Assembly (NCBI GenBank): GCA_017522185.1
Contig: JAFWZZ010000033.1
Span: 1 to 56,288, forward strand
Direction of reading: 5' to 3'
Source of the DNA: Bacillota bacterium
GTDB lineage: Bacteria > Bacillota > Clostridia > Peptostreptococcales > Anaerovoracaceae
DNA length: 56,288 nt
This document shows, piece by piece, positions 10,970-51,723 of this stretch (position 1 is its first letter; the number at the start of each line of letters is the position of its first letter). Under the pieces are notes generated by a model, which worked only from the letters and a program-made list of their open reading frames with translations, was not told the DNA's origin and searched no databases. The translations under genes and the position numbers were made by a program.

Positions 10970-11262
10970 AGTTCTAGAAATTTCGGCCTGGAGTTCTAGA
11001 ATTTGGATCCCTGGTATGTTGTTTTCTAGAACTTTACACTCGTCGATTCTAGAAATTCAGTTTGGCCTGCCCGATTTCTAGAAAATATGTCATGAGTGTT
11101 CTAGAATTACAATCGATTCAAGGTGTTTTTCTAGAACTTTAACAAAAAAATCTCTATTTCCGAAGCAGTAGTTCTAGAAACTGACCTGTTCAATCTTTGT
11201 TTTCTAGAATTAAATCAAAAAAGTTCTAGAAAGATAGCCCTTTGTTGTCATTTTTCTAGAAC
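10970..11262. repeat. Array 1: eleven TTCTAGAA sites, alternating orientation and spacing
   Basis: Perfect TTCTAGAA cores start at 10972, 10994, 11024, 11047, 11076, 11099, 11129, 11172, 11202, 11224 and 11254, giving steps of 22, 30, 23, 29, 23, 30, 43, 30, 22 and 30. Flanks give an orientation: GTTCTAGAAA (forward) is followed 30 bp on by TTTCTAGAAC (reverse) in four of five pairs. The 21-22 nt within pairs and 14-15 nt between pairs are all different. The 43-bp step equals one short step plus one further degenerate site. The array fills the gap between the tkt terminator (11320) and the InlB-repeat gene promoter (-10 at 10894-10899). No ORF is present. Confidence 0.9.
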
Positions 11263-11319
11263 TTTTCATATCTTACTTATCCCCCGCCGTTTTCGGCTGG
11301 TTATATCTCCAAAAACACA

Positions 11320-11350
11320 AAAGGCCTCTTCCCCAGGAAGAGACCTTTTT
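11320..11350. terminator. Terminator after split transketolase, usable on both strands
   Basis: AAGGCCTCTTCC pairs with GGAAGAGACCTT around CCA, with an A-run before and a T-run after the stem. It ends the tkt transcript just before array 1. Confidence 0.85.
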
Positions 11351-11363
11351 CGTTCACAATATC

Positions 11364-12290
11364 TTACAGTCCTTTCACAGCCGCAACGATGTCTGCAGCT
11401 GTCATGCCGTATTTTTCTTTTAATTCGTCTGGTTTGCCGGATTCACCGAAGGTGTCGTTCTGGCCAACCATTGCCATCATGCAAGGGCAGTTCTTTACAA
11501 CCACTTCTGCAACTGCACTGCCCAGGCCGCCGATCACGGAGTGTTCTTCGGCAGTTACGATTTTGCCGCATTCGGATGCAGCCTTGATGATGATTTCTTC
11601 ATCTAATGGCTTGATGGTATGGATGTCGATGACACGAGCCTCAATGCCCTCTTCAGCCAAAGACTCTGCTACCTTCATGGCTTCTGCCACCATGATGCCA
11701 GTTGCGATGATTGCAACGTCACCGCCGGCTCTAAGTTCGTGGCCTTTGCCCAGCACGATGTCTGCGGATTCATCGTAGAACACAGGAACGGATGCTCTGC
11801 CTAAACGAACGTAAGCAGGACCTTCGAATGCGCAAACCTGCTTCATCAGCTTCATTGCGCTGACGCCGTCGGATGGGTTTACCACAGTCATGCCCGGAAT
11901 GGTTCTCATCAGGGCGATGTCTTCGAAAGTCTGGTGGCTGGCACCGTCTTCCCCTACTGTGATACCTGCATGTGTTGCACAAACCTTTACGTTTGCGCCT
12001 GTATAGCCGATAGAGTTTCTGATGATTTCAAAAGCTCTGCCGGATGCGAACATGGCGAATGTGGATGCACATACAACCTTGCCGGACAGTGCCAGACCGG
12101 CTGCCGTGCCATATAAATTCTGTTCAGCGATACCCATGTTGAAGAATCTTTCAGGGTATACCTTCTGGAAGTCGCCTGTCTTTGTAGACTTGGAAAGGTC
12201 GGCGTCCATAACGATCAGATTCGGATTTTCTGCTCCGATTTCAACGAGTGCCTTACCGTAAGCTTCTCTTGTTGCCATCTTATCTGCCAT
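11364..12290 (-). CDS. Transketolase, C-terminal subunit
   Basis: About 308 residues, the pyrimidine-binding plus C-terminal domain half of a split transketolase. Visible motifs include MGIAEQNLYGTAAGLA (catalytic Glu of the Pyr domain), THAGITVGEDGASHQ and TIPGMTVVNPSD; the C-terminal domain begins near residue 190. With the partner subunit upstream it moves two-carbon units between sugar phosphates in the non-oxidative pentose phosphate pathway. The ATG at 12290 overlaps the TAA of the upstream subunit (TAATG), so the two are translated in a coupled way. A start two codons earlier is possible. Confidence 0.92.
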   Translation of the reverse strand: MADKMATREAYGKALVEIGAENPNLIVMDADLSKSTKTGDFQKVYPERFFNMGIAEQNLYGTAAGLALSGKVVCASTFAMFASGRAFEIIRNSIGYTGANVKVCATHAGITVGEDGASHQTFEDIALMRTIPGMTVVNPSDGVSAMKLMKQVCAFEGPAYVRLGRASVPVFYDESADIVLGKGHELRAGGDVAIIATGIMVAEAMKVAESLAEEGIEARVIDIHTIKPLDEEIIIKAASECGKIVTAEEHSVIGGLGSAVAEVVVKNCPCMMAMVGQNDTFGESGKPDELKEKYGMTAADIVAAVKGL

Positions 12291-13108
12291 TACCATTCAC
12301 CTCCCAGTTCTGCTACTGCCTGTTTTGCTTCCTCTTCGCTTGGCGCCTTGCCGTGCCATCCTGCCTGGTTTTCCATGAAGGAAACGCCCTTGCCCTTTAC
12401 GGTCTTTGCTAAGATTGCAGTCGGCTTGCCCTTGCATGCGCGCGCCTGATCAAAAGCATCAAAGATTTCATCAAAATTATGTCCATCGATGCAGACAACA
12501 TTCCAGCCGAAAGCTGCGAATTTTTCATCGATAGGCTTTACCTTCATAACGTCGTCGTTGTCGCCATCGATCTGCAGACCGTTGAAGTCCACGATGGCAA
12601 CCAGGTTGTCCAGACCGTAGTGGGCTGCAGACATCACTGCTTCCCAAACCAGGCCTTCCTGGATTTCGCCGTCACCCAGCAGGGTATAAACTCTGCCCGG
12701 ATTCTTGTCAATCTTGTTTGCCAGTGCCATACCAACGCTGACAGAGATGCCCTGACCTAAAGAACCTGTGGACATTTCCACGCCAGGTACTTTGTGCATG
12801 TTTGGATGTCCCTGGAAGATGCTTCCCATCTTACGCAGGCTCATCATGTCTTCTACAGGGTAATAGCCTCTTTCAGCCAGTGCAGCGTACTGCACAGGAC
12901 CTGCATGTCCCTTGGATAAGATGAACTTGTCTCTGTCTGCCTTCTTTGGCTCAGCAGGGTCGATGTTCATTTCCTTGAAATACAGTGCGGTCACGATGTC
13001 TGCCGCAGATAAGGAGCCGCCCGGATGGCCGGATCCTGCCTTATGTATTGCGCGGACTACATCGATTCTGACTCTTGCAGCCACTTCTTCAAAATGTTTG
13101 TTCGCCAT
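12290..13108 (-). CDS. Transketolase, N-terminal (thiamine-diphosphate) subunit
   Basis: 272 residues forming the PP domain of a split transketolase. GSGHPGGSLSAADIVTALYF at about 25-45 and GDGEIQEGLVWEA at about 143-155 (the Mg/ThDP motif GDGx(n)N continued by IVDFNGLQIDG) are clear. The catalytic site forms at the interface with the C-terminal subunit, encoded next. It has a GGAGGATAATC ribosome site and starts 68 bp after mazF on the same strand. Confidence 0.93.
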   Translation of the reverse strand: MANKHFEEVAARVRIDVVRAIHKAGSGHPGGSLSAADIVTALYFKEMNIDPAEPKKADRDKFILSKGHAGPVQYAALAERGYYPVEDMMSLRKMGSIFQGHPNMHKVPGVEMSTGSLGQGISVSVGMALANKIDKNPGRVYTLLGDGEIQEGLVWEAVMSAAHYGLDNLVAIVDFNGLQIDGDNDDVMKVKPIDEKFAAFGWNVVCIDGHNFDEIFDAFDQARACKGKPTAILAKTVKGKGVSFMENQAGWHGKAPSEEEAKQAVAELGGEW

Positions 13109-13176
13109 GATTATCCTCCATTTTATCTATTTGATGGGGGAAACTGCTTTTTCAGCTCCCCCCACGAAATCAAAAA

Positions 13177-13524
13177 TCATTCTTTCATCCCCAGACTGAT
13201 ACCCAGCGCACGGTCTACTCCCGGCATCTGGTCCTCGCTGAGGGTACCAATGTGCTCCTTCAGTCTCTGCTTGTCGATGGTACGCAGCTGTTCCAGCAGC
13301 ACCACCGAATTCTTACTGAGTCCTCCACTGGAGGCCCTGAGTTCTACATGGGTCGGCAATTTTGCCTTATTAATCTGTGATGTTACAGCCGCCACGATGA
13401 TGGTGGGACTGTATTTGTTTCCTACGTCGTTTTGAACTACAAGTACTGGTCTGACTCCCCCTTGTTCAGAGCCAACAACGGGACTCAGATCTGCAAAGAA
13501 AAGGTCTCCCTTCTTTACGATCAA
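13177..13524 (-). CDS. mazF: MazF/PemK-type mRNA interferase (NdoA-like)
   Basis: About 115 residues. The best start is a TTG at 13524, eight bases after AAGGAG, giving [16 protein letters not shown], which matches NdoA N-termini; a TTG three codons earlier is too near the ribosome site. The conserved [38 protein letters not shown] and [13 protein letters not shown] segments are intact, so the enzyme should cleave mRNA at short sequence-specific sites. In Bacillus the antitoxin gene lies directly upstream; here the upstream gene is nnrD, 19 bp away, and no small antitoxin ORF is visible. The antitoxin must be elsewhere or absent. Confidence 0.92.
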
Positions 13525-13543
13525 GTCCAACACTCCTTACTTT

Positions 13544-14395
13544 CTAGATAGTCAATTCTTTCAAGGCAAAAGGGACATAATCAGCAATATCACTGGCGGT
13601 GAGTCCGTACTCTCCCACATGCTCCGCAGCCATGTCTCCCGCAAGACCGTGTACAAAGACGCCGGCCCGCGCCGCATCGCCAGCCGCCATGCCCAGGCCC
13701 GCAAAGGATGCGATCACGCCTGTCAGAACATCACCGGAGCCGGCTGTGGCCATTCCAGGATTTCCTGTAGTATTAATATATGCTTCATCGGCAGAAAGGG
13801 CCACGATGGTGCCGGCACCTTTCATGACGATAATAGACCGATACTTGTCCATCAAAGCTGCCGCCAATTCTTCCCGGCTCAGCTCCCCGTCTGCAGCTTG
13901 TCCACCCAGCAGTCTTCTTGCTTCTCCCACATGGGGCGTCATGATAACTTTGGCGCGGGTTTCTCTGATCAAAGCCTGCAGATCAGGCTCTGCCGCCACG
14001 GCGTTGAGTCCGTCGGCGTCGATGATTACAGGGCCGTCATAAGAAGACAGCACTGCGTGCAGCATCGCTTTCGTGTCTCCGCCGGTCCCAAGACCCGGTC
14101 CGATGGCTACAGCATCATACTGCGATAAGTCACTCTTTACCTTGTCCCAGGACTTACAAATGCCTTCCGGTACGGAAATCTGCAGCACCGGATAGATGCG
14201 GCGGTCCGTGCAGGTGTACACCAGGCCGCTGCCGCTTTTGATGGCCGCTTTGGTGCAGAAAATGGCGGCGCCTGCCATTTCCTCCGAGCCGCAGATCAAA
14301 AGCACCCGTCCGCAATCCCCTTTATGTATGTCCCGAGGTCGCTTCTTAATGACAGTATGGACAAAATCTCTATCTGTTAAACCTAAAATTTTCAT
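13544..14395 (-). CDS. nnrD: ADP/ATP-dependent NAD(P)H-hydrate dehydratase, stand-alone (NnrD)
   Basis: About 283 residues of the ribokinase-like YjeF C-terminal domain that repairs damaged NAD(P)H hydrates. Visible are GRVLLICGSEEMAGAA near the start, IGPGLGTG, VIIDADGLNAVA, TPHVGEARRL and the nucleotide site NTTGNPGMATAGSGDVL at about 215-231. The epimerase half (NnrE) found fused in many bacteria is missing. The start at 14395 (MKILGLTD) follows the lipoprotein stop directly; a start four codons earlier lacks a ribosome site. It sits between a lipoprotein gene and mazF in the mgtE-to-tkt run. Confidence 0.9.
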   Translation of the reverse strand: MKILGLTDRDFVHTVIKKRPRDIHKGDCGRVLLICGSEEMAGAAIFCTKAAIKSGSGLVYTCTDRRIYPVLQISVPEGICKSWDKVKSDLSQYDAVAIGPGLGTGGDTKAMLHAVLSSYDGPVIIDADGLNAVAAEPDLQALIRETRAKVIMTPHVGEARRLLGGQAADGELSREELAAALMDKYRSIIVMKGAGTIVALSADEAYINTTGNPGMATAGSGDVLTGVIASFAGLGMAAGDAARAGVFVHGLAGDMAAEHVGEYGLTASDIADYVPFALKELTI

Positions 14396-14397
14396 GT

Positions 14398-14850
14398 TTA
14401 TTCCCATCGTTCGAAGACAAGGGTAGAAACGCTGCCTCTGTCGTTCTCACAGCTTAGATACAGCAGCTCAGTTCCATCTTCCTCATGGAAGCTGTACTTC
14501 AGCTGCCCGTCTTCGGTGATTCCTAAAATATACCATAAATACGGTGGGTCAAAATCGTCCGACTCACAGTCCAGTTGGATAACGCCCCCACCGTCCGGGT
14601 ACAACTTCCCCGCCATGCCGGGATTTCCCGCCTCTACATCGTACAGGCTGAACGTTCCATCTTCTTCCACGCGGAGACTCAGATAGCCGACATATAAGGC
14701 GTCTTCTGTACCCCGTTCTTCCAGCGCACTTTCCTGACAGTTCCAGCTGCCCACAAAAGGCGCCAGGGCCTCTTTGTTCAGTTCCGGCCCGCATGCACCC
14801 AGCGCACAGGCCAGGATGCAGCAGCAGAGCAGCGCAATAAGTTTCTTCAT
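14398..14850 (-). CDS. Small predicted lipoprotein
   Basis: About 150 residues. The N-terminus MKKLIALLCCCILACALGAC has a lipobox (LGAC) with the modified Cys near residue 20. The mature part is beta-rich with SWNCQESALEERGTEDALYVGYL and repeated Asp/Glu-Gly turns, resembling lipocalin-like stability domains, but I do not recognise a family. Start chosen at 14850, seven bases after AGGAG. It lies 11 bp after mgtE and directly before nnrD. Confidence 0.7.
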   Translation of the reverse strand: MKKLIALLCCCILACALGACGPELNKEALAPFVGSWNCQESALEERGTEDALYVGYLSLRVEEDGTFSLYDVEAGNPGMAGKLYPDGGGVIQLDCESDDFDPPYLWYILGITEDGQLKYSFHEEDGTELLYLSCENDRGSVSTLVFERWE

Positions 14851-14861
14851 TGTCATTCTCC

Positions 14862-16265
14862 TTACAGTCCCAGAATCACCGTCGCCATGGCAAAGAAGAT
14901 GCCCAGCGCGATGATATCAGATACGGATGAGATGGCCGGATTCGCAATCAACGCAGGGTCCAGCTTGAACTTCTTAACTAACAACGGCACCATGGAGCCG
15001 ATAATTTTTGCGATGATAACGATGCCCAGGATAGAGATGGATACGGTCAGACCAATCCATACGCCGTTGCCGTCCAGCCAGCAGACTCTGGCAAAGTTCA
15101 CGATGCTGAGCACGAGCCCGATCAGTGCGCCGACACGGAATTCCTTCCAAAGAATTTTCAGCGCGTCGGATGTGTCCACCTCGTCTGTGGCAAGACCACG
15201 GATAATCAAAGTGGATGCCTGGGAGCCTGTATTCCCGCCGGTACCCATCAGCATTGGCATATAGGATACCAGACAGATGACTTCAGACAGCTTGGCCTCA
15301 AACCCGGTGATAATCATACCGGTGAAGATGTAGGCAATCATCAGGACAATAAGCCACGGAAGACGGTTCAGGGCATGCTGCCACACGGAAACGTCCAGGT
15401 AGTCTTTGTCGGAGTCCTCAAAGTCGATAACCCCGTTCATCAGCTCGAAGTCCTCGGTGGTTTCTTCTTCAATAACGTCCAGGATGTCGTCGACGGTGAC
15501 GATACCCACCAGACGCTGTTCATTATCTACAACCGGCAGTGCCAGGTAGCCGTACTTCTTAAAGTCTTCGGATACTTCTTCCTGGTCATCAAAAACGTGG
15601 GCGAAGACAAATTCCGTACGCATGATGTTTTTGATTTTTTCTTCGTCCGGTGCGATTACCAGTGTGGCAAGAGAAACGATACCGATCAGCTTACGGCCGA
15701 AGTCTCTTACGTAACAGGTATAGATGGTTTCCGCTTCCATGCCTTCTTTCTTGATATGGTCGAGGGCCTGGCGGACGCTCCATTCTTTGTCCAGACTGAT
15801 GTATTCCGGCGTCATGATGCTGCCGGCACAGTCGTCAGGATAGTTCAGGAAGGTATTGATTAATTTTCTTTCCTGTTTTGGTGTCTTTTCTAAGATCTGG
15901 TTGACGATGTTGGCAGGCAGTTCCTCCAGCATGTCAATCTTATCGTCAAAGTCCATCTCGCCGATGATGAAGTTGATTTCCTTATCGGTGATGCGGTTGA
16001 CGATTTCCACCTGGTCGTCAGATGGCAGTTCTGCGAAGACGTCGACAGAGATGGCTTTCGGAAGCAGACGGAACAGAACGATGCTGCGTTCGTAGTCGTA
16101 TTCTTCCGTGATTTCTTCCAGCATTTCTGCGATATCTACCGCGTTGTATTTCAGGAGTTCATCTCTGGCCTGGAAGTACTTCTTTTCTTCCAGCAGGCCG
16201 TAGATTTTTTCCAGGGATTCTTCCATCAGTAAATCTGTATCAGGAAGCAGGATTCTGTTTTCCAT
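14862..16265 (-). CDS. mgtE: Magnesium transporter MgtE
   Basis: 467 residues. Order of parts: MgtE N-domain (about 20-130, LFRLLPKAISVDVFAELPSD), two CBS domains (about 135-260, CAGSIMTPEYISL and GYLALPVVDNEQRLVGIVTVDDILD), a plug helix and five membrane helices (about 285-467). GTGGNTGSQASTL at about 345-357 is the conserved membrane signature. Inner-membrane Mg2+ channel gated by Mg2+ binding to the CBS domains. The ATG at 16265 is placed eight bases after AGAGAGG. A leader of about 190 nt with a small ORF and a strong hairpin precedes it and may regulate it. Confidence 0.95.
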   Translation of the reverse strand: MENRILLPDTDLLMEESLEKIYGLLEEKKYFQARDELLKYNAVDIAEMLEEITEEYDYERSIVLFRLLPKAISVDVFAELPSDDQVEIVNRITDKEINFIIGEMDFDDKIDMLEELPANIVNQILEKTPKQERKLINTFLNYPDDCAGSIMTPEYISLDKEWSVRQALDHIKKEGMEAETIYTCYVRDFGRKLIGIVSLATLVIAPDEEKIKNIMRTEFVFAHVFDDQEEVSEDFKKYGYLALPVVDNEQRLVGIVTVDDILDVIEEETTEDFELMNGVIDFEDSDKDYLDVSVWQHALNRLPWLIVLMIAYIFTGMIITGFEAKLSEVICLVSYMPMLMGTGGNTGSQASTLIIRGLATDEVDTSDALKILWKEFRVGALIGLVLSIVNFARVCWLDGNGVWIGLTVSISILGIVIIAKIIGSMVPLLVKKFKLDPALIANPAISSVSDIIALGIFFAMATVILGL

Positions 16266-16284
16266 AGGCATTTCCTCTCTTTCT

Positions 16285-16320
16285 CGTCAGTTTCCCCTTT
16301 GCCGGAGAAACAAATTGACG
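16285..16320 (-). promoter_or_regulatory. Stable hairpin just before the mgtE ribosome site
   Basis: On the minus strand CGTCA..GTTTCTCC pairs with GGGGAAAC..TGACG around GGCAAA, a 13-bp stem with a 4-nt bulge. It ends about 15 bases before the mgtE ribosome-binding site and directly follows the 25-codon leader ORF, the layout of a translation-coupled leader. No T-run follows, so it is not a plain terminator. Confidence 0.55.
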
Positions 16321-16340
16321 CAGACAGAAACGCTCTGAAT

Positions 16341-16418
16341 CTATTTCTCCAGCGAAGACAGGGTGATCTTCTTCGGTTGCACAAAAGATATTCGGTTAGG
16401 GACAGGCCCGTTATCCAT
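16341..16418 (-). CDS. 25-codon leader ORF upstream of mgtE
   Basis: ATG at 16418 follows AAGGAAG by seven bases and gives 25 residues: MDNGPVPNRISFV, then QPKKITLSSLEK and TAG. It lies inside the mgtE transcript leader, about 40 nt after the predicted start site and 75 nt before mgtE. Three prolines and an early Asp recall Mg-responsive leader peptides of enteric mgtA/mgtCBR, in which ribosome stalling on Pro/acidic codons controls downstream structure. That comparison is inference. It could also be an unrelated small protein or chance. Confidence 0.45.
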   Translation of the reverse strand: MDNGPVPNRISFVQPKKITLSSLEK

Positions 16419-16464
16419 GTCTTCACTTCCTTTCGTTTGATTTTTGAACATATTTTAACATCTT

Positions 16465-16494: not shown

Positions 16495-16525
16495 CTATAG
16501 AAAAACTGGGAAAATGATTTTTTAT

Positions 16526-16568: not shown

Positions 16569-16651
16569 TTAAGTAACGTATAAATATATTCGTCGATTTT
16601 TTCGTGCGAGTATTTTTAGTGAATAAGAGAACAGAAAAGAGGAGATTACCA

Positions 16652-39511: not shown

Positions 39512-40705
39512 ATGGACAGAGTAATTTTACATTGTGACATGAATGGGTTCTTCGCATCTGTGGAACTTCTGGACAGGCCGGATCTGGCGGACAAGCCGAT
39601 GGCCGTCTGCGGTGACCCGGAAAGCCGGCATGGCATTATATTGGCTAAAAATGAACTGGCCAAGCGGTGCGGTGTTGTGACTGCCGAGACCATCTGGCAG
39701 GCAAAGAAAAAATGTCCGGATCTTCAGCTGGTGGCACCCCATCATGAGAAGTACAAAATGTACAGCAAAAAAATAAACCAGATTTATCTGCAGTACACCG
39801 ACATGGTGGAGCCGTTCAGTATCGACGAGTCCTGGCTGGATGTAACTGCCAGCCTGCAGCTCTTCGGCAACGGTGTTGAAATTGCAGATCAGATTCGTGA
39901 GAGGGTAAAACGGGAACTGGGCCTGACCCTCTCTGTTGGCGTGTCCTATAATAAGATTTTTGCTAAAATGGGAAGTGAATATAAGAAGCCGGATGCTACC
40001 ACCGTGATTTCCCGGGAGAACTACCGGGATCTGCTCTGGCCCCTGGATGTGGGCGATATGTTTTTCGTCGGCGCGGCCACAGCGGAGAAACTTCGTTCGA
40101 TGGGTATTGCCACCATCGGGGATCTGGCCCGTGCCAACCCGCTGGCTTTGGAAGCCTTGCTGGGAAAACACGGCCCGATGCTCCACCGCTACGTCAACGG
40201 CCTGGACGACGACCCGGTCCGCCGCTACGACCAGCGGGAACCTGTAAAATCCGTCGGAAACGGCATCACCTTCAAACGGAATCTGATTGGCCTCGATGAT
40301 ATCACCACCGCGGTGACAGCTCTGGCTGATACGGTAGCAACCAGGCTGCGGGCACAGCAGCTCAAAGCCCGGGGCGTAAAGGTAGACATCAAAGACCCCA
40401 ACTTCCGAACCATTACCCGCCAGAAACAGCTGCCTCACCCGACCCATTCCACTGCGGATGTGCGCGAGGCGGCCATGGAACTGATCGCTGCATCCTGGCG
40501 GCCGTCGGATCCGATCCGCCTGCTGACCATCACCGCCATTAACCTAACCGGCGAAATGGCCGACGAACAGCTTTCCCTGTTCGATGCTCCTGTCATCGAG
40601 CGTGAGCGCGACGAATCCCTGGACAAAGCCATGGACGACATTCGCCGCAAGTTCGGCGACAGCTCTATTACCTTCGGCCAGATGATTGATAATGATTTGG
40701 TTTGA
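39512..40705 (+). CDS. dinB: DNA polymerase IV (DinB, Y family)
   Basis: 397 residues. The palm has ILHCDMNGFFASVE (Asp9) and FSIDESWLDVT (Asp105, Glu106), the catalytic acidic residues of error-prone translesion polymerases. VGVSYNKIFAKMGSEYKKPD and two helix-hairpin-helix turns follow, then the little-finger domain from about 240. Near the C-terminus EQLSLFD is a canonical sliding-clamp binding motif (QxxLF). No ribosome site precedes the ATG. I see no LexA box in the promoter, so SOS control is not supported. Confidence 0.95.
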   Translation: MDRVILHCDMNGFFASVELLDRPDLADKPMAVCGDPESRHGIILAKNELAKRCGVVTAETIWQAKKKCPDLQLVAPHHEKYKMYSKKINQIYLQYTDMVEPFSIDESWLDVTASLQLFGNGVEIADQIRERVKRELGLTLSVGVSYNKIFAKMGSEYKKPDATTVISRENYRDLLWPLDVGDMFFVGAATAEKLRSMGIATIGDLARANPLALEALLGKHGPMLHRYVNGLDDDPVRRYDQREPVKSVGNGITFKRNLIGLDDITTAVTALADTVATRLRAQQLKARGVKVDIKDPNFRTITRQKQLPHPTHSTADVREAAMELIAASWRPSDPIRLLTITAINLTGEMADEQLSLFDAPVIERERDESLDKAMDDIRRKFGDSSITFGQMIDNDLV

Positions 40706-40738
40706 TTATATTTTATTTAGCTTTGGCAAATCTGAGAA

Positions 40739-41008
40739 GTTCTAGAAATACTGCTATTTGAGGCCGATTTCTAGAACTTTTTTCTTTTGTGTTCTAGAAA
40801 TCCCAGGCTTTGCATTGAAATTCTAGAAAATTCTACTTTGCTTTTCTAGAAAAATTGGGCTTTCCTGCTCATTTTCTAGAAATACTCTCTGCTTTTTCCA
40901 GGAAACTCTTTGTTTTTTCTAGAAAACCCCTTCCAGAACCTCTCATTTCTAGAACCTGCAAACGGAAAGTTCTAGAAAACATACCTTTCCGTAATAGTTT
41001 TCTAGAAC
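40739..41008. repeat. Array 2: TTCTAGAA sites with the same ruler as array 1
   Basis: TTCTAGAA cores start at 40740, 40769, 40792, 40821, 40844, 40874, 40917, 40947, 40970 and 41000; steps 29, 23, 29, 23, 30, 43, 30, 23, 30. A degenerate palindromic site TTCCAGGAA sits at 40896-40904 inside the 43-bp step. Pairs 29-30 bp apart run forward (GTTCTAGAAA) then reverse (TTTCTAGAAC) in the outer pairs. Intervening sequences are unlike each other and unlike array 1. First to last core is 260 bp, as for the paired part of array 1. It lies between the convergent dinB and a nuclease-like gene. Confidence 0.9.
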
Positions 41009-41022
41009 TTTTCATTTCGCAC

Positions 41023-43432: not shown

Positions 43433-46400
43433 CTAAAATACCGGTTTTCCTTTGATGTTAGGTCGTCCTACCAGGTCGGCTACCGTATCAAAGAATTCAA
43501 TGGTCGGATGGACGCCGCCCTGTGGGCTTGTTCTGACAATCTTGCCATTCTGCAGGTAGATGAGCACCGGTGTGTCGCCGGCAAAGGCCCTGAAAATCAG
43601 CTGCAGGTCCTGCAGAACCTGTTTCTCGTCGGCGTCTTCCGGGATGCGGACTTTCACCGCATTTTCTCCCGGATTTCCCCCGCGTGGGGAATGCTGCGAT
43701 GCGGACGCTGCGGACGGAGCGGTTGCCCTCTGCGCGTCGGCTGACGGTGTGGACGGCGCAGATGTCTGTCGCTGCGGACCCGGCTGGGATCCTCTCTGGC
43801 GAGGTCTGTCGCCATATCCACGGTCCTCATCCGCCTTCAGCAGGTCCATGTTTTCTTCTACCGCGTGGATTTCCACGATGGTGTCGGCCAGCAGCTTCGG
43901 TACTTCCTCTTCCTTGAAGTTCAGCTTGCCTTTGATGACCACGACGTTGTCTTCGGCCAGGGTATGCATGAACCTGTCGTAAACGTTAGGGAATACCACC
44001 ACTTCTACGGTGCCGTATAAGTCTTCTAAATCCACGAAGGACATCATCTTATTATTCTTTGTGACCAGCTTCTTCTGGCCGGTAATCATGCCTGCCATGA
44101 TGACAGACATACCGTCCTGAATGTGATGGTCAGCGTTGTGTTCCGGCTCTGCCGCCGATGCAAGGTCTTCACTGGTGACGGAGGTCAGCTCCCGGATGCG
44201 GTCTGCATAGTCATTGAGCGGATGGCCGGTGATGTAAACGCCCAGCATTTCCTTTTCCATGGCCAGCAGCACGTCCTGGTCAAAGTTCTTGATATCCGGC
44301 AGTCTTCCTGTGGTATCACCTGTGTTCATCTCTTCCATACTGGTCTGGAAGAGGGACATCTGGCCTGCGATATTCTTCTTCGCGTTAGCCTGGGCGGATT
44401 CCATGAGGCTTTCGTAGATGGTCAGATGGGCCGCACGGTTTTCGTTGAGGCAGTCCAGGGCGCCGGCTTTGATCAGGCTTTCTACCGCCTTCTTGTTGAC
44501 CTCGGAGATTTCCAGGTTGTTGATGAACTGGAAGATATCCTTCGGTCTGCCCTTTTCCTCGCGGGCCTTGATAATGGCGTCGATGGCGCCTTCGCCTACG
44601 TTTTTGACGCCGAGGAGCCCGAAGCGGATCTTACCGTCCACCACGGAGAACTTCTTCTCACTGCCGTAGATGCAAGGAGGCAGTACCTCGATGCCCATGT
44701 CCTGGCAGTTACGGATATATTTGGAGATGGCTTTCGCATCGCCCATGACCGATGTCATGAGGGCAGCCATAAACTCTACAGGATAGTATTTCTTCAGGTA
44801 GCCGGTCTCAAAGGCAACCACCGCGTATGCCGCAGCATGGGACTTATTAAACGCGTACTGAGCGAAGGTTTCCATGTCGGCAAAGATGGCTTCTGCCGCC
44901 TCGCGGGAGATGCCGTTACGGATGCAGCCGGGTACTTCCACGGTGCCGTCTTCGCGGACGATGCCGTTGATGAAGTATTCCTTTTCCTGATCCATGACGT
45001 CTTTTTTCTTTTTTGACATGGCACGGCGCACCAGGTCAGAACGGCCGTAACTGTAGCCTGCCAGCTCACGCACGATCTGCATTACCTGCTCCTGGTAGAC
45101 CAGACAGCCGTAGGTTACGTCTAAGATTGGCGCCAGTTCCGGCGTCACGTATTTGATCTTGTCCGGGTTCTTTTTGTTCTCGATGTACTTCGGAATGGAG
45201 TCCATCGGGCCCGGTCTGTAGAGGGAGATGCCCGCTACCACGTCTTCGAAGCAGGTCGGCTTCAGGTTCTTCATGAAAGCCGTCATGCCGCCGCTTTCCA
45301 GCTGGAACACGCCTTCGGTGTTGCCGCTGGCAATCATATCGTACACGCCGCGGTCATCGTAGCCCATGCGGGCGAAGTCGATGGTCACGCCGTAATTCTT
45401 TTCAATTAATTCCAAGGCGTCGCGGATGACCGTCAGGTTCCGCAGGCCCAAAAAGTCCATCTTGAGCAAGCCCAGCTCCTCGATGGTGGTCATGTTGAAC
45501 TGGGTGGCAACGCCTTTGTCCGCCATGTACAGCGGCACGTATTCGTCCAGTGGCAGCTTGGAGATTACAACCCCGGCTGCATGGGTGGATGCGTGACGCG
45601 GCATGCCTTCGATGGAGCGGGAAACATCCAGGACTTTGCGCACGGTTTCGTCGCCTTCGTACATGGACTTCAGCTCCGGATTCATCTCGATGGCCTTGTC
45701 GATGGTCATCTTCAGGTCGAACGGAATGGCCTTTGCGATGCGGTCGCCGTCTGCGTAAGACAGGTTCAGGGCGCGGGCAACGTCACGGACTGCCGCCTTG
45801 GCTTTCATGGTACCAAAGGTGATAATCTGAGACACGTTGTCTTCGCCATACTTGCGTTTTACGTAGTCGATGACTTCACCGCGTCGTTCGATACAGAAGT
45901 CGATATCGATATCTGGCATGCTGACACGTTCCGGATTGAGGAAACGCTCAAAAATCAGGCTGTAGCGTATCGGGTCGATGTCTGTAATCTGCAGACAGTA
46001 TGCGACTAGGCTTCCCGCCGCAGAACCTCTGCCCGGTCCCACCATGATGTGGTTGACCTTGGCGTAGTTGATGAAATCCCATACGATGAGGAAGTATTCC
46101 ACGTAGCCCATGTTCTCGATGACATCCAGCTCGTAGCTGAGTCTTTCTTCCAATTCCGGCGTCACGTCATCGTAACGTTTGGCCAGGCCTTCGCGGCAAA
46201 GCTCACGGAGATACTGGGCGTTAGTCTTGCCTTCCGGCGGAATGAATTCCGGCAGATGGTATTCGCCAAAGGTGAACTCCACGTTGCAGGCATCGGCGAT
46301 CTTCTGGGTATTATCGATGGCTTCCGGCGCAAAGGCGAAAATCTTACGCATTTCGTCTTCGCTTTTCAGGTAGAACTGGTCATTTGGGAAGCGCATGCGG

Positions 46401-47098
46401 TTCTCGTCGTCGATGTTGGTAGCCGTCTGAATGGCCAGCAGAACATCGTGCCACTCGGCGTCTTCCTGGCGCACGTAGTGGACGTCGTTGGTAGCCGCCA
46501 GCGGAATATCCAGTTCCTTGGACAGCTTCACCAGCATTGGATTGATCATGGCCTCTTCATCCAGCCCCTGGTCCTGCAGCTCCAGGTAGAAGTTGCCGTG
46601 ACCAAAGATTTCATCCAGCGCCATGGCCTCCGTGCGGGCACCGTCGTAGTCCCGGTTCAAAAGGCACTGCTGGACTTTACCTGCAAGGCAGGCAGACAAA
46701 GCGATGATGCCTTCGCTGTGGGCAGCAAGGACGTCTTTGTCGATACGCGGTTTATAGTAGTATCCCCTGGTGTAACCCTGGGATACGATTTTGATTAAGT
46801 TTTTGTAGCCTTCATTGTCTTTGGCAAGGAGCACCAGGTGGCCCTGATACTTGTCCTTGTCGGCGTCTTTGTCGGTCATCTTGCGGGCCGCGGTATAAAC
46901 CTCGCAGCCGATAACCGGCTTGATGCCCTGCTTCTTACATTCTCTGTAGAAGTCGATGACGCCGAACATGCAGCCGTGGTCCGTGATGGCCAGGGCCGTC
47001 TGACCAAGCTCTTTGGCGCGGGCAACGACTTCCGGGATGCGGGCTGCGCCGTCCAGAAGGCTGTATTCCGTATGGACATGTAAATGTGTAAATGCCAT
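43433..47098 (-). CDS. dnaE: DNA polymerase III alpha subunit (DnaE)
   Basis: 1221 residues. PHP domain at the start (HLHVHTEYSLLDGAARI, ITDHGCMFG), polymerase core with GPGRGSAAGSLVAYCLQITDID and the catalytic PDIDIDFCIERR, MDFLGLRNLTV, YRPGPMDSIPKYI and MSKKKKDVM, then tandem helix-hairpin-helix (NKKAVESLIKAGALDCL) and an OB domain near 985-1075 with MAGMITGQKKLVTK. A Pro/Ser/Gln-rich low-complexity stretch of about 60 residues (about 1090-1150) separates the OB domain from a conserved C-terminal domain. Replicative or lagging-strand polymerase; PolC is not in the window. Start follows AGAGGAATTTTTT. Confidence 0.96.
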   Translation of the reverse strand: MAFTHLHVHTEYSLLDGAARIPEVVARAKELGQTALAITDHGCMFGVIDFYRECKKQGIKPVIGCEVYTAARKMTDKDADKDKYQGHLVLLAKDNEGYKNLIKIVSQGYTRGYYYKPRIDKDVLAAHSEGIIALSACLAGKVQQCLLNRDYDGARTEAMALDEIFGHGNFYLELQDQGLDEEAMINPMLVKLSKELDIPLAATNDVHYVRQEDAEWHDVLLAIQTATNIDDENRMRFPNDQFYLKSEDEMRKIFAFAPEAIDNTQKIADACNVEFTFGEYHLPEFIPPEGKTNAQYLRELCREGLAKRYDDVTPELEERLSYELDVIENMGYVEYFLIVWDFINYAKVNHIMVGPGRGSAAGSLVAYCLQITDIDPIRYSLIFERFLNPERVSMPDIDIDFCIERRGEVIDYVKRKYGEDNVSQIITFGTMKAKAAVRDVARALNLSYADGDRIAKAIPFDLKMTIDKAIEMNPELKSMYEGDETVRKVLDVSRSIEGMPRHASTHAAGVVISKLPLDEYVPLYMADKGVATQFNMTTIEELGLLKMDFLGLRNLTVIRDALELIEKNYGVTIDFARMGYDDRGVYDMIASGNTEGVFQLESGGMTAFMKNLKPTCFEDVVAGISLYRPGPMDSIPKYIENKKNPDKIKYVTPELAPILDVTYGCLVYQEQVMQIVRELAGYSYGRSDLVRRAMSKKKKDVMDQEKEYFINGIVREDGTVEVPGCIRNGISREAAEAIFADMETFAQYAFNKSHAAAYAVVAFETGYLKKYYPVEFMAALMTSVMGDAKAISKYIRNCQDMGIEVLPPCIYGSEKKFSVVDGKIRFGLLGVKNVGEGAIDAIIKAREEKGRPKDIFQFINNLEISEVNKKAVESLIKAGALDCLNENRAAHLTIYESLMESAQANAKKNIAGQMSLFQTSMEEMNTGDTTGRLPDIKNFDQDVLLAMEKEMLGVYITGHPLNDYADRIRELTSVTSEDLASAAEPEHNADHHIQDGMSVIMAGMITGQKKLVTKNNKMMSFVDLEDLYGTVEVVVFPNVYDRFMHTLAEDNVVVIKGKLNFKEEEVPKLLADTIVEIHAVEENMDLLKADEDRGYGDRPRQRGSQPGPQRQTSAPSTPSADAQRATAPSAASASQHSPRGGNPGENAVKVRIPEDADEKQVLQDLQLIFRAFAGDTPVLIYLQNGKIVRTSPQGGVHPTIEFFDTVADLVGRPNIKGKPVF

Positions 47099-47116
47099 AA
47101 AAAATTCCTCTTTTTT

Positions 47117-48088
47117 CTAGATAAACAGTGGTACCAGGAACGGCACTGCCATGGACAGGACGAACCCGGAGATAAAGGAGTAGACTGCCACGGTTCCGCT
47201 TGTGGAGCGTTCCACTAACGGCAGACATACGTCCATGGCCGGGGAAGCCGGCAGCGCCAGCGCTTCCACATAGCCCAGCTTCTTCGCTACGATCGGGATA
47301 AAGATAATCGCGCAAAGTTCTCTCATAACGTTGTGCATGAAGGAGATCGCCCCTGCGGAAACCAGGCCCGCATCTAACAGGATGGCAGATCCCATAGAAT
47401 ACCACGCCAGACCTGCGCTGACTGCTACGCTTTCGTTGAGCGGTATTGGCAGAAACAGGCCTGCAGCTGCGCCGCCTGCCAACGTTCCGATGGCGATGGC
47501 AATTGGAATTGCCACGATCTTGATGCCTACTTTTTTGAAGTTTGCAAATACCTGTCCTTCCAAGCCCAGATCCAATCCGACGAAGACTAACAGCACACAA
47601 AGCTCGATGGTAATGGCTGTGCCTGCCGCCGCGTTAAATACATCAAATGTAAAGAGATTCTTGCAGACAAAGTAGCCGCACAGAATACCTGCCGCTACAC
47701 AGCAGACAATCAGAAGTGTCATAGTATCGATTTTGCCTTTTGCCTGCTCCTTGTTCTCTTCGTGTTCCTTATTTGTTTCCGCAGCAGCATCGGTATTTAC
47801 CAGGCCGTAGCGGTCCATTTTGAGGGCTTTGCGCACAAAGAATACACAGATCAGAGATCCCGCCAGTGTGAAAACGGTAATCACAAGGGCATAGAGCCCA
47901 TAGGATCCCAGGTTCTTTACAATCTCGTCGTTCGCCCCGATACGAAGACCCATGGTGAATACCAAAATCAGAACGGAAAGGGTCTGCGCCAGACCAATCC
48001 ATTTTAATCTATCTTTTACTTTACGCAGGGGAATCGCAGCGACATACCCTGCCATACAAATTCCTAAATATAATGCAATATCTGACAT
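47117..48088 (-). CDS. lysO: LysO-family lysine exporter (DUF340)
   Basis: 323 residues, about eight to ten membrane helices. The N-terminal GICMAGYVAAIPLRKV and FTMGLRIGANDEIVKNLG, and the C-terminal GLAWYSMGSAILLDAGLVSAGAISFMHNVMRELCAIIFIPI, match the LysO family, which exports L-lysine in E. coli. A charged loop (about 95-125, ETNKEHEENKEQAKGK) divides the two halves. First gene of the run with dnaE, 18 bp upstream of it. Confidence 0.85.
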   Translation of the reverse strand: MSDIALYLGICMAGYVAAIPLRKVKDRLKWIGLAQTLSVLILVFTMGLRIGANDEIVKNLGSYGLYALVITVFTLAGSLICVFFVRKALKMDRYGLVNTDAAAETNKEHEENKEQAKGKIDTMTLLIVCCVAAGILCGYFVCKNLFTFDVFNAAAGTAITIELCVLLVFVGLDLGLEGQVFANFKKVGIKIVAIPIAIAIGTLAGGAAAGLFLPIPLNESVAVSAGLAWYSMGSAILLDAGLVSAGAISFMHNVMRELCAIIFIPIVAKKLGYVEALALPASPAMDVCLPLVERSTSGTVAVYSFISGFVLSMAVPFLVPLFI

Positions 48089-48125
48089 GATAAAACTCCT
48101 TTTTCTTAAAAGTTGATTACTCTAT

Positions 48126-48154
48126 ATTGTAGCAAATTTGCGGGGGTTTGGCAA
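48126..48154 (-). promoter_or_regulatory. Promoter of lysO-dnaE-pfkA-flavodoxin
   Basis: Minus strand -35 TTGCCA (48149-48154), 17 bp, -10 TACAAT (48126-48131). About 38 bp before lysO. It directly abuts the gltX terminator. Confidence 0.7.
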
Positions 48155-48158
48155 TGGG

Positions 48159-48187
48159 AAAGGCCCGCCGGGATGCCGGCGGGCCTT
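48159..48187 (-). terminator. gltX terminator
   Basis: AAAGGCCCGCCGG pairs with CCGGCGGGCCTTT around a short loop. The T-run is only three bases, so termination may be partial and allow read-through into lysO. Confidence 0.7.
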
Positions 48188-48208
48188 TGATGGACGCTTT
48201 GATAGATT

Positions 48209-49861
48209 CTATTTGTAATTCGCGATTCTTGCTCTTGTTCTTTCTTCGCCCAGGATCTGCTGGATTTCCCAAACGTCTGGGGACTGGCTGCGGCCCATCA
48301 GCGCGATACGGATCGCTGTGCTGACATGACCTACGTGGCCTTTGTATTCTTCTGGATGCTTCTTGAAGTCCTTTGGCTTCACTGCGTAACCCATGTCGGC
48401 AGTGATGGTTCTGATTTTTTCGAACCACTGGCTCTGGTCATCGCTGTGGTCATAAGTTTCCAGGTAAGCCTTCAGGATTTCCGGTACGTCTGCTGCAGCT
48501 TCTGCAGGCATTTCGTCTTCAATCTTGAACATGTCGTCGAAGAAGTAGCTGATGAACTCGATCATCTGCTGTGCGTAGATGTGGTCCTTTCTAGGCTTTG
48601 CTTCGTTGCGGCCTAAGTCCAGGATTCTTTCCAGGTAAGCACGGTCTTCGAAGATGTGCATGATTTCTGGCTTGAATTCTTCTGCCCAGCCCTTGAGGAA
48701 GTCGTACAGTTCAGATGCAGGAATCTTCAGCAGCACGTCCTTACTGATGTCGTTGAGCTTGTTCAGGTCGAACAGTGCACCGGAGTTACTCATCTTTTCT
48801 GTGGTGAATTCGAACGCGTCGATTGGTGCATCTGGGTTTGCCATTCTCCATTCTTCGAAGTTGGAGTTCAGGATGGTCAGCAGGTATTCTCTCACTGCTG
48901 CAGGGTGGTAACCCTGGTTTCTATAGTAGTCTAAGGACAGTTCAGGGTCCTTTCTCTTAGACAGCTTTCTCTTGTTGCCTTCTTCGTCCAGCTTCATCAG
49001 CTGTGCAGTGTGGCAGTAAATCGGAGCTTCCCAACCCAGTGCCTGGAACAGTTCCACGTGGATTGGCAGGGATGGCAGCCATTCAGCACCTCTTACTACG
49101 TGGGTAGTTCTCATCAGGTGGTCGTCCACTACGTGAGCAAAATGATAGGTTGGGATGCCTGTTGCCTTCAGGATAATGACGTCCATGAAGTTTTCCGGCA
49201 TTTCCAGTGTGCCTCTGATGGCATCTTCTACGGCAAACTTCTTTACATCGTCGCCGCTCTGATCAGGGTTTCCCTGGGACTTCAGTCTGATTACGTAAGG
49301 CTTGCCGGCTTTGATGTTGTCTTCGATTTCTTCCATCGTTAAGTCACGATGTTTTGCAAACTGGCCGTAAATACCAGGGTTCAGTTTTTCTGCTTCCTGT
49401 CCAGCTCTGATTTCAGCGATTTCTTCTTCAGTTAAGAAACAAGGATATGCCTTGCCTTCTTCCACCAGTTTCTTTGCGAATGCCTGGTAGATCGGGCCTC
49501 TGTTGCTCTGGGTGTAGTCGCCGTAGTTGCCCATGTCGCCTTCCATGGTTGCCCCTTCATCAAAGTTGATGCCGAAGAACTTCAGGGAGTTGATGATGAT
49601 TTCTACTGCGCCTTCTACGTATCTCTTGTCGTCAGTGTCTTCGATTCTCAGATAGAATACACCGCCGGACTGGTGTGCCAGTCTTTCGTCAACAAAAGCG
49701 CCATACAGGTTACCTAAGTGGATGAAGCCTGTTGGGGAAGGTCCTAATCTTGTTACCTTTGCACCTTCCGGTAATTCACGGGCAGGATACATCGCTTCGA
49801 TTTCTGCCGGTGTTTTTTCTATGTTAGGGAATAACAGTTCCGCTAATTTTGCATAATTCAT
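48209..49861 (-). CDS. gltX: Glutamate-tRNA ligase
   Basis: About 550 residues from the ATG at 49861 (MNYAKLAELLFPN), seven bases after GGAGG; a longer frame upstream is leader. LGPSPTGFIHLGNLYGAFVDERLA is the HIGH-type motif region and KRKLSKRKDPELSLDYYRNQGYHP carries the KMSKS-equivalent (KLSKR). The C-terminal anticodon domain ends ALMGRSQSPDVWEIQQILGEERTRARI. It loads glutamate on tRNA-Glu, and as no Asn/Gln ligase is visible it may be non-discriminating. No T-box leader is seen. Confidence 0.95.
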   Translation of the reverse strand: MNYAKLAELLFPNIEKTPAEIEAMYPARELPEGAKVTRLGPSPTGFIHLGNLYGAFVDERLAHQSGGVFYLRIEDTDDKRYVEGAVEIIINSLKFFGINFDEGATMEGDMGNYGDYTQSNRGPIYQAFAKKLVEEGKAYPCFLTEEEIAEIRAGQEAEKLNPGIYGQFAKHRDLTMEEIEDNIKAGKPYVIRLKSQGNPDQSGDDVKKFAVEDAIRGTLEMPENFMDVIILKATGIPTYHFAHVVDDHLMRTTHVVRGAEWLPSLPIHVELFQALGWEAPIYCHTAQLMKLDEEGNKRKLSKRKDPELSLDYYRNQGYHPAAVREYLLTILNSNFEEWRMANPDAPIDAFEFTTEKMSNSGALFDLNKLNDISKDVLLKIPASELYDFLKGWAEEFKPEIMHIFEDRAYLERILDLGRNEAKPRKDHIYAQQMIEFISYFFDDMFKIEDEMPAEAAADVPEILKAYLETYDHSDDQSQWFEKIRTITADMGYAVKPKDFKKHPEEYKGHVGHVSTAIRIALMGRSQSPDVWEIQQILGEERTRARIANYK

Positions 49862-49900
49862 GTCTTGTCCTCCGTTTTGGATATATTCATTAACTTTTAT

Positions 49901-49930
49901 ATTATACCCGTGAATGGGTATAGATTTCAA
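49901..49930 (-). promoter_or_regulatory. gltX promoter with an internal 20-bp dyad
   Basis: Minus strand -35 TTGAAA (49925-49930) and -10 TATAAT (49901-49906) with 18 bp. Inside it TATACCC-N6-GGGTATA (49903-49922) is a perfect dyad covering the spacer and -10, a good operator candidate. It also lies 46 bp upstream of the divergent spoVAF-like gene. Confidence 0.7.
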
Positions 49931-49967
49931 GGGGTTTGGAAAAATATCTCTCATGGAGGTGTAGATT

Positions 49968-51392
49968 ATGGTAAAAAACAACTATCCATATTTTTTAGAT
50001 ACCTTTGTAGGCCAGCTGCCTGTGGGGGAGTCTTTTGATTTGGTAGAGCGTCGTCTTTCTATCGGCGGACGTGACGGCCGAATGTACTTTCTTGACGGCC
50101 TCTCTGACGGACAAAAAGGCCAGCTCCTTCTGGATTTTCTCATGGAAATTTCCGTCCGGGAGATGAAGAATATCGAAAGTGCCGACCAGTTTCTGGCCTC
50201 TTTGGTGCCTTTTATTACGGCCACTGCCGAGTCAGATGTGAACATGGCTGCCAAGCAGATGTACGCAGGCCTTGCTGCCATTCTATTAGACGGACTGGAC
50301 AAAATTCTCATCGTAGACATCCGTCGGTATCCACTGCGTGGAATTGAAGAGCCTGAGAAAGAAAAGACCCTGCGAGGGGCAAAAGACGGGTTCAATGAGA
50401 GCATTATGAGTAACATTGGGTTGATCCGACGGAGAATCCGGGACAACCGATTGATTTTCAAATATCACATGATTGGGGCGAAATCGAAAACAGATGTAGC
50501 AGTCTGCTACATGAAAGGTATTGTCGACGATGCCCTATTGGAAAAGGTCACATCGGCATTAGACAATATCAAAATTGACAGCATTTCCGTGGGTGATCAA
50601 TCCATTGTGGAGCAGTTGATGAAAGAATTTCATCGTGGCCGGGGCGGTCTTGCTTCTTCCTTCAATCCTTTTCCAAAGGTCCGTTACACCCAGCGGCCAG
50701 ATGTAGTCTGCGCCCATCTGACCGAAGGAAAAATTGCAATTATCGTCGATAACACGCCAACGGTACTGCTGCTGCCTGTGGGTATTTTCAACTTTACACA
50801 GGATATGGATGACTACTATTTTCCCCTGATTACCGGTAATTACCTGCGGCTTCTGCGGATTTTGAATATGGTGCTGATTCTGCTGGCAACGCCTGTTTAT
50901 CTGTTAACCTGCGAGGGTCATATTGAGGCACCTTTTGATTTGGATTTCATATTACCAAAAGACGATTATGCCTTGCCTGTCTTCTGGCAGTTTCTTTTGC
51001 TGGAGCTGGCCATCGACGCACTGAAACTGGCCTCCTTAAATACACCGAATTCTCTTGGCATGTCATTGTCAGTGATCGGTGCTTTGATTCTCGGTGAATT
51101 CTCCATCGATTCTGGCTGGTTTATCGCCCAGACTATTCTGGTGATGGCTGTGGTGGCTTTGGCATCCTTTACCCAGCCCAGTATGGAACTGTCCTACGGT
51201 ATTAAGTTTATCCGTGTCATGCTACTGATTGGCTGCCATCTATGGGGATTCTGGGGCTTCTTTGGCGGACTGTTTCTGGCCTTCCTCATGCTGGTAACCA
51301 CCAAAACCGTCAGCGGCCACAGCTACCTGTTCCCTTTGATTCCGTTCTACTGGCCTGCGCTGAAAAAGCTGCTGTTTCGGACGTCACGGTAA
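49968..51392 (+). CDS. spoVAF: GerA-family spore protein, SpoVAF-like
   Basis: 474 residues. A soluble N-terminal GerA-type domain (about 1-275) with KILIVDIRRYPLRGIEEPEKEKTLRGAKDGFNESIMSNIGLIRRRIRD is followed by membrane helices (about 290-445): NFTQDMDDYYFPLITGNYLRLLRI, FWQFLLLELAIDALKLASLNTPNSLGMSLSVIGALILGEFSI. The N-terminal HPYFxDxxVGQLPVGESFDLVERR pattern (here YPYFLDTFVGQLPVGESFDL) points to SpoVAF, which forms an ion channel in the inner spore membrane during germination. Start follows GGAGGTGTAGATT. GerB/GerC partners are not next to it. Confidence 0.88.
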   Translation: MVKNNYPYFLDTFVGQLPVGESFDLVERRLSIGGRDGRMYFLDGLSDGQKGQLLLDFLMEISVREMKNIESADQFLASLVPFITATAESDVNMAAKQMYAGLAAILLDGLDKILIVDIRRYPLRGIEEPEKEKTLRGAKDGFNESIMSNIGLIRRRIRDNRLIFKYHMIGAKSKTDVAVCYMKGIVDDALLEKVTSALDNIKIDSISVGDQSIVEQLMKEFHRGRGGLASSFNPFPKVRYTQRPDVVCAHLTEGKIAIIVDNTPTVLLLPVGIFNFTQDMDDYYFPLITGNYLRLLRILNMVLILLATPVYLLTCEGHIEAPFDLDFILPKDDYALPVFWQFLLLELAIDALKLASLNTPNSLGMSLSVIGALILGEFSIDSGWFIAQTILVMAVVALASFTQPSMELSYGIKFIRVMLLIGCHLWGFWGFFGGLFLAFLMLVTTKTVSGHSYLFPLIPFYWPALKKLLFRTSR

Positions 51393-51421
51393 GGGGATGT
51401 GGTGGGAAAATAGCCTTCCAA

Positions 51422-51723
51422 GTTCGACAATTATTTAATATATATTATAGTTTGTCGAACTTTTTTGAGAAAAATTCGACAAATTGTATAAATGGTAGAT
51501 GATTTGTCGAACTCTATCCTTTTATATTCGACAAATACCACAGATAGATGGAAGAATTGTCGAACCAAGGCAGTGCAAAGTTCGACAATACAGAATCGTG
51601 CGCGCCATTTTGTCGAACCTGAACAACTTTAGTTCGACAAATAAGTCTTTTATCTACGTTTTTGTCGAACCAGACCATGAAAAAGTTCGACAAAAATTTC
51701 AGAGACATTATAGATTGTCGAAC
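51422..51723. repeat. Array 3: six GTTCGACAA / TTGTCGAAC pairs at 52-53 bp period
   Basis: Forward TTCGACAA cores start at 51423, 51475, 51527, 51581, 51633, 51686; reverse TTGTCGAA cores at 51452, 51504, 51557, 51610, 51662, 51715. Strict alternation gives steps 29, 23, 29, 23, 30, 24, 29, 23, 29, 24, 29. No core has a mismatch. The 21-22 nt inside pairs and 15-16 nt between pairs are all different and show no shared words. The array lies between the convergent spoVAF-like gene and the 134-residue membrane gene; that gene's terminator (51758) shields it. No promoter is evident in it. Confidence 0.92.

Follow-up and report, generated by a model that had tools for sequence, protein, structure and literature searches.

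Phased arrays of short alternating words in an Anaerovoracaceae genome as possible landing platforms for a DNA-binding protein

What keeps three separate intergenic arrays of short inverted words on one spacing ruler while the DNA between the words differs from array to array? The question is raised by a 56,288-nt stretch of the genome of a Bacillota bacterium of the family Anaerovoracaceae (contig JAFWZZ010000033.1), referred to here as the window. A sequence-only reading of this DNA had left two options, a cooperative DNA–protein scaffold or an RNA made of a chain of hairpins. The scaffold fits best with the fixed lengths, the odd steps of about whole helical turns, the conservation of the words, and the presence of the same kind of array with other words in two relatives. 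About an even chance is given to the view that the arrays serve as extragenic landing platforms, on each of which a putative sequence-specific DNA-binding protein would form a scaffold along one face of the helix. In the following, the host genome is G000 and the window is its contig C31; G-numbers designate genomes, C-numbers contigs, and L-numbers sampled stretches.

Ten arrays on one ruler

Array 1 (10969..11264; none of the arrays has an assigned strand) contains 11 copies of the word TTCTAGAA. From 10994 onwards, they form five forward–reverse (F–R) dyads (10994/11024, 11047/11076, 11099/11129, 11172/11202, and 11224/11254), with a single 43-bp step from 11129 to 11172. The extra word at 10972, 22 bp before the start of the ruler, was omitted from all interval counts. 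Array 2 (40737..41010) also consists of five F–R dyads of TTCTAGAA, with words at 40740, 40769, 40792, 40821, 40844, 40874, 40917, 40947, 40970, and 41000. Its 43-bp step, from 40874 to 40917, lies at the matching place, as the earlier reading had pointed out. Array 3 (51420..51726) has six F–R dyads of TTCGACAA / TTGTCGAA at 51423, 51452, 51475, 51504, 51527, 51557, 51581, 51610, 51633, 51662, 51686, and 51715, without an irregular step. The core positions originally reported for the three arrays, which start at 10994, 40740, and 51423, proved exact, and all 21 copies of TTCTAGAA in the window lie inside arrays 1 and 2.

The two core words had been regarded as different. As sequences they are, but TTCTAGAA and the array 3 words are variants of one frame, since an asymmetric AAGTTC(TAG or GAC)AAA whose orientation alternates is the best reading of the word. 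Brought into a single orientation, the 68 TAG words have the consensus AAAG-TTCTAGAA-A and the 20 GAC words AAG-TTCGACAA-A. Bases 1–3 of the TAG set are TTC in 68/68 words, and the eight off-consensus words (8/68) are all changed at bases 4, 5, 6, or 8, the side on which TAG and GAC differ.

Searches of the host genome for pairs of these words gave 44 forward matches for TTCTAGAA and nine for TTCGACAA. There are ten arrays on a common ruler, three in the window and seven elsewhere: on C21 at about 58.5, 79.8, 142.8, and 174.9 kb, on C33 at about 37.2 kb, and on C34 at about 57.6 kb (GAC word) and 116.4 kb. Eight of the ten use TTCTAGAA (TAG arrays), while array 3 and C34:57.6 kb use the GAC word. 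No TTCTAGAA pair found in G000 stands alone, each being part of an array with two or more dyads.

All 44 F–R intervals measure 29 or 30 bp (25 and 19 cases, respectively), and 28 of the 34 reverse–forward (R–F) intervals fall within 22–24 bp (22 bp, four; 23 bp, 21; 24 bp, three), the others being 12 bp (one), 33 bp (one), and 43 bp (four); these counts include nine of 88 words that deviate and were put on the ruler by eye. With exact words only, F–R intervals are 29–30 bp in 36/36 cases and R–F intervals 22–24 bp in 23/28, the remainder being one step of 33 bp and four of 43 bp. The mean F–R plus R–F repeat is about 52.4 bp, which bears out the earlier equation of a 52–53-bp period with five helical turns. 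If the contact centre is shifted by one base toward the AAG side, a fitted value, the steps become about 31.5 and 21 bp, or three and two turns. The odd R–F steps differ from 23 bp by −11, +10, and +20 bp, which are approximately whole turns. Across eight loci, the off-step intervals cluster at whole turns (Rayleigh p about 7e-4; p about 0.011 for the five distinct values). This set includes the deviations among the places listed for the relative G007 (53 and twice 105 against 63 bp) and omits the usual-step multiples 126, 188, and 282 bp as missing units.

A word-free ruler detector, allowing one mismatch per word, gave 27 four-word matches in the array-bearing 196,288 bases and none in their shuffle. 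In other stretches of G000 (658,221 bases), it found no four-word match and three three-word matches (one in the shuffle). The rest of C34, C21, and C33, less the last 446 bases of C21 and 753 of C33, holds no further array of this kind and only two chance-like three-word matches (L180 and L183). There was one three-word match in 400,000 bases of the relative G005 and one in 324,399 bases of other genus mates, with none in the shuffles; the lack of four-word matches in G005 follows from the step of 94 bp in that genome.

Drifting spacers, conserved words, and relatives

The intervening sequences had been described as unrelated between arrays. This holds for most array pairs but not for the end of array 1, whose segment 11084..11277 is homologous to the array at C21:174.9 kb (array D, in L019) with a masked score of 92, nor for the tail TTCTAGAACTTTTCAT, which is common to arrays 1 and 2. 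No other pair of TAG or GAC arrays scores above the maximum of 300 shuffles (16). Two pairs reach this value (the arrays of L017 and L020, and that of L022 with array 1), and arrays 1 and 2 score 14 and arrays D and 2 score 15, the 99% level being 14.

Arrays 1 and D are partial copies amid different gene surroundings. Their six internal words have changed at 0/48 bases and their spacers at 26/147 (p 4.5e-4); when the border word at 11076 is included, which reads TTCCAGAA in array D with one base different, the words have changed at 1/56 bases (p 0.002). Over nine arrays, with D omitted as a copy of array 1 here and in the flank and folding tests below, the identity of long spacers is 0.347 within arrays (75 pairs) and 0.348 between arrays (705 pairs). 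Words and lengths have thus outlasted spacer similarity. As long spacers are as unlike within as between arrays while words and distances are kept, something appears to read the latter.

Two other species of the genus, G005 and G007, carry arrays of the same kind with different words and with rulers of nine and six turns, respectively. The G007 word TTGAGCAA stands at intervals of 29 and 34 bp (step 63) at three sampled loci; 62 of its dyads were counted in G007, against none in 60 other genomes. A second G007 word, GTTTCGTA, occurs at one locus with intervals of 31, 32, and 31 bp. In G005, the word GTTACGCA shows intervals of 31 and 62–63 bp (step 93–94) at three sampled loci, with 56 dyads in this genome and none in 60 others. 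Pairs of the host word TTCTAGAA were found in two of 61 genomes, namely G000, which has 44, and G046, whose single pair looks like chance. The loose pattern GTTCNNNAA occurred in G000 only, one of 148 genomes that included two genus mates and 145 other genomes of the family.

In G007, where the units of four loci are near copies, 2/256 word bases and 116/752 spacer bases have changed. The near-copy units of two G005 loci give 0/144 and 45/702; because these units were aligned from their first word, that part could not vary. Such units suggest that these arrays were born by tandem duplication, followed by spacer drift.

A freer detector, a word search on sampled stretches that required steps of at least 18 bp, brought up the other-word arrays of G005 and G007 but found no array in 324,399 bases of G008, G009, G010, and G012 and no clusters in 774,165 bases of shuffled G005 and G007 samples. 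In other G000 stretches (1,007,239 bases), it reported two places, both belonging to a second array class or a variant of it, which is treated below; the step requirement makes it miss second-class arrays in L070, L234, and L235. The repeats it reported in L137, L139, L147, L091, L105, and L227 were not counted as this kind. At L137:12355 and L139:12771 (G005) lie two dispersed copies of a sequence roughly 250 bp long that contains ACGGCG / CGCCGT dyads and could be a miniature mobile element. L220:3415-3600 (G007) has GTTCGGCA pairs 12 bp apart every 62 bp and then an inverted copy, in a direct-repeat layout.

The array kind may extend beyond the genus, as a two-dyad candidate was found in one of four stretches sampled in two further genera of this family. 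It lies at L239:3237-3360 in G020 and consists of two AATAGGTGA / TCACCTATT dyads, with 31 bp inside and 82 bp from dyad to dyad. A scan of named genomes (84,980 species, a set that may omit the host genome or very near ones) gave two matches, in Xenophilus and Pseudanabaena, each single, without a word cluster, and judged to be chance. Viral contigs had no match to the KAS/TMG pattern. Loose-pattern matches in 22 viral stretches were judged to be chance, with words that differ inside each match or sit in repeats. Array 3 had no match among plasmids, and array 2 had none among phages.

Competing readings

On a landing platform of this kind, a protein would read a word that is asymmetric and roughly 12 bp long (AAGTTC-TAG-AAA, with GAC as the alternative to TAG), and the alternating orientation would align the bound units along almost the same face of the helix. 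Side-by-side binding could then produce a cooperative nucleoprotein stretch of 90–300 bp resembling an insulator, an anchor, or a silencer. Each word would be read by its own protein, and the arrays would grow by tandem duplication of dyads, with the spacers drifting afterwards. We infer binding, cooperativity, one protein per word, and this mode of growth from the pattern described above. A cooperative one-face scaffold would explain the fixed lengths, the whole-turn deviations, the conservation of the words, and their uniformity in the genome.

Several observations weigh against this platform. No binding protein was found for the array words. The shift of the contact centre by 1 bp was fitted after the fact, and the 12-bp step ends at one of the nine deviating words placed by eye. 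The 43-bp steps of arrays 1 and 2 and of the L017 array may represent one inherited event, which would weaken the whole-turn clustering, and the step of the second array class (81 bp, 7.7 turns) does not amount to whole turns. Repeated exact words led to the loci in the relatives, so the counts from them lean to conserved words. The same word variant occurs in both members of three neighbouring pairs (L017, L018, and L020), a pattern that hairpin-templated copying would explain as well as selection would. Finally, no common chromosomal address of the arrays is apparent: those of G000 are confined to four of 35 contigs (P 0.0014 for ten arrays on four or fewer), and those of G005, among the arrays listed, are spread over two large contigs.

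The flanks of arrays 1, 2, and 3 and of C21:58 kb fall within 177 kb of G005. Despite this synteny and the confinement to four contigs, a chromosome domain near the origin or terminus is not claimed, as the listed G005 arrays are spread. The dnaA gene of G000 is on C19, a contig on which the searches for TTCTAGAA and TTCGACAA pairs found no array.

A wider proposal built on the platform is put forward tentatively, as a possibility and not as an expectation. According to it, a helix-turn ruler is kept throughout the genus while the word is replaced in each species, its reader being a DNA-binding protein that evolves fast. Such a system would be the bacterial equivalent of word turnover at centromeres or of the PRDM9 type and would organise or insulate the chromosome. 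A word that is replaced between species requires that its reader change with it. If the proposal is true, bacterial chromosomes would have sites whose meaning lies in helical spacing and whose letters can be swapped between species, and the co-evolution of word and reader would be directly testable in sister species. No description of this array form was found in the literature covered, which leaves out most subscription papers.

Among the rival explanations, a spread of miniature mobile dyads survives best, although it is considered improbable. Here, a trans-acting transposase would distribute inverted pairs that then multiply in tandem, and the words would be kept for the transposase. The species specificity of the words, the extragenic position of the dyads, their clustering in tandem, and their dispersal resemble the doublets of repetitive extragenic palindromes (REPs) known as REPINs, as described in PMC3116915. 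The partial copying between arrays 1 and D in different gene surroundings also suits mobility, as does one lone dyad among the G005 places listed (C8:88.6 kb). However, a search limited to G000 and to the Y1 transposase family (PF01797) found no member over the cut-off, and every TTCTAGAA pair found in this genome shares its array with at least one other dyad. Spacer lengths that stay fixed after similarity is lost, and facing flanks without covariation, also argue against it. A Y1 transposase fragment below the cut-off, which matches over 40 positions and contains three stops, is present in L173 (G000 C34:118803-118925).

A structured RNA or a DNA cruciform, in which neighbouring inverted words pair into a chain of hairpins, is rated lower still and must be called quite unlikely. 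The words are inverted and complementary, and the joint changes in the three neighbouring pairs mentioned above, which are the best evidence on this side, together with those of whole arrays from TAG to GAC, speak for it. Facing flanks nevertheless match at or below expectation, with 43 matches against 50.8 expected for short pairs (26 pairs) and 76 against 76.3 for long pairs (40 pairs); the outer flanks of long pairs match slightly above expectation, with 94 against 82.2 (P 0.025). Compared with shuffled spacers (40 shuffles each), the real spacers brought no gain in folding in 15 of 18 strand tests (z −1.3 to 1.4). The three exceptions, which fold better, are the plus strand of array 2 (z −2.6) and both strands of the L017 array (minus, z −2.3; plus, z −1.8). 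No Rfam family matches in the window, and RNA loops would not need 29–30 bp in 44/44 cases. Because the flanks lack covariation and the spacers mostly add no folding, a hairpin RNA is unlikely, and the second option of the sequence-only reading is disfavoured.

Very little probability is assigned to a Spo0A platform, in which array 3 and its C34 counterpart would be dense clusters of Spo0A boxes linking sporulation control to chromosome organisation, with the TAG arrays belonging to another regulator. The GAC word contains TTCGACA, which we take to be the Spo0A box consensus; array 3 and C34:57.6 kb carry it in their words, and the eight TAG arrays lack it in their consensus. Spo0A is encoded in G000, and gerA adjoins array 3. 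Against this stands the use of TTCTAGAA, not that box, in eight of ten arrays. G000 has only one Spo0A_C gene, and thus no Spo0A paralogue for the second word. Furthermore, Spo0A occurs in ten of 12 genus mates, yet behind gerA, the only locus compared, no array was present in any of ten mates. These mates are distant (GerA 64–69% identical; Spo0A about 67–70% for nine of the ten aligned), and by eye eight of their ten gerA loci, one of them incomplete, keep the convergent neighbour found in the host, the other two having other neighbours. The GAC word was sought genome-wide in G000, by the loose pattern in the two genus mates and 145 family genomes, and in the scan of named genomes. Spo0A could read the GAC word without accounting for the TAG arrays.

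The least probable explanation, functionless homogenisation by template switching at the replication fork that copies inverted words onto each other, agrees with the private variants shared by neighbouring words at three places but does not explain why eight arrays whose spacers are mostly unrelated use one word, nor does it explain the fixed lengths and the whole-turn deviations.

Neighbours, a second array class, and known systems

The genes next to the arrays are recorded as neighbours only. Array 1 adjoins a minus-strand gene with transketolase pyrimidine-binding and C-terminal domains (11364..12296), array 2 lies downstream of a plus-strand ImpB/MucB/SamB (DinB-like) polymerase gene (39512..40705), and array 3 follows a plus-strand gene for a GerA spore germination protein (49968..51392). 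Other arrays of G000 are flanked by genes for a DeoR regulator, an arginase, radical SAM and helix-turn-helix proteins, a citrate transporter, and ArsC. No neighbour gene common to the arrays was seen among these mixed flanks, and no partition gene was present among the array neighbours scanned with Pfam. The G000 arrays are intergenic, except that weak reading frames overlap arrays 2 and 3.

The second array class is built of quads, GTTTTC-15-GTTTTC-4-GAAAAC-15-GAAAAC, with word starts at 0, 21, 31, and 52 and the next quad 29 bp on, resulting in a step of about 81 bp; whole-turn phasing therefore applies inside the quad only. G000 has this class at six places (L020:12707-13005, L020:8079-8316, L024:3726-4025, L070:8889-9188, L234:7330-7630, and L235:5698-5916). 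In G007, single quads or quad pairs occur on five contigs (L220:12226, L228:13055, L229:5505, L221:13911, and L230 at about 12145). At one mismatch, the quad pattern was found in six of 61 genomes, four of which, besides G000 and G007, had single chance-like matches. A GTTTC variant of the class, GTTTCTATAGAAAC, with a step of 81 bp, lies at L025:3070-3340 (G000 C33). Direct repeats at L066:1-260 and 1883-4160 (G000 C28), whose steps are 18 bp and 9–45 bp, probably belong to repeat-coding genes.

Among known systems, bacterial interspersed mosaic elements (BIMEs) and REPINs are similar in several respects. According to PMC2817692, BIMEs contain regularly spaced REPs in alternating orientation, and PMC3116915 describes REPINs as ordered tandem clusters tied to REP-associated tyrosine transposases (RAYTs). 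The arrays are likewise extragenic and dispersed, with inverted dyads alternating at regular spacing, tandem clusters, and species-specific words. In contrast, their word has 8–12 bp, while 16-mers were used in the REPIN work (PMC3116915). The REP core reportedly carries a GTAG or CGTC tag (PMC3733652), and neither tag occurs on either strand of the array consensus AAAGTTCTAGAAA and AAGTTCGACAA. No RAYT (PF01797) exceeded the cut-off in G000, the one genome of the three array-bearing species that this search covered. Hairpin support does not go beyond the words, and the arrays have whole-turn step rules and locus-specific spacers. As RAYT, hairpin, and tag features were not encountered in G000, the arrays are not filed under REPIN or BIME.

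In clustered regularly interspaced short palindromic repeats (CRISPR), too, the words are constant and the spacers between them vary while keeping a fixed length. The array words, however, are only 8–12 bp long and alternate in orientation instead of forming one-way direct repeats, and there are ten dispersed arrays.

The likeness to Spo0A boxes, by the presumed consensus TTCGACA in 12/12 words of array 3, does not extend to the TAG arrays, which are without it. To our knowledge, twelve alternating copies on a fixed ruler, as in array 3, are not a usual Spo0A promoter arrangement.

Plasmid centromere iterons, bound by ParR or omega, as well as parS and Noc sites, are arrays of protein-binding sites. 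The arrays described here differ from them in that about ten are spread chromosome-wide, in the replacement of the word between sister species, and in the lack of a partition gene among the Pfam-scanned neighbours. What they would share with these systems is the principle of short words on a phased ruler that presumably nucleate a cooperative stretch of protein.

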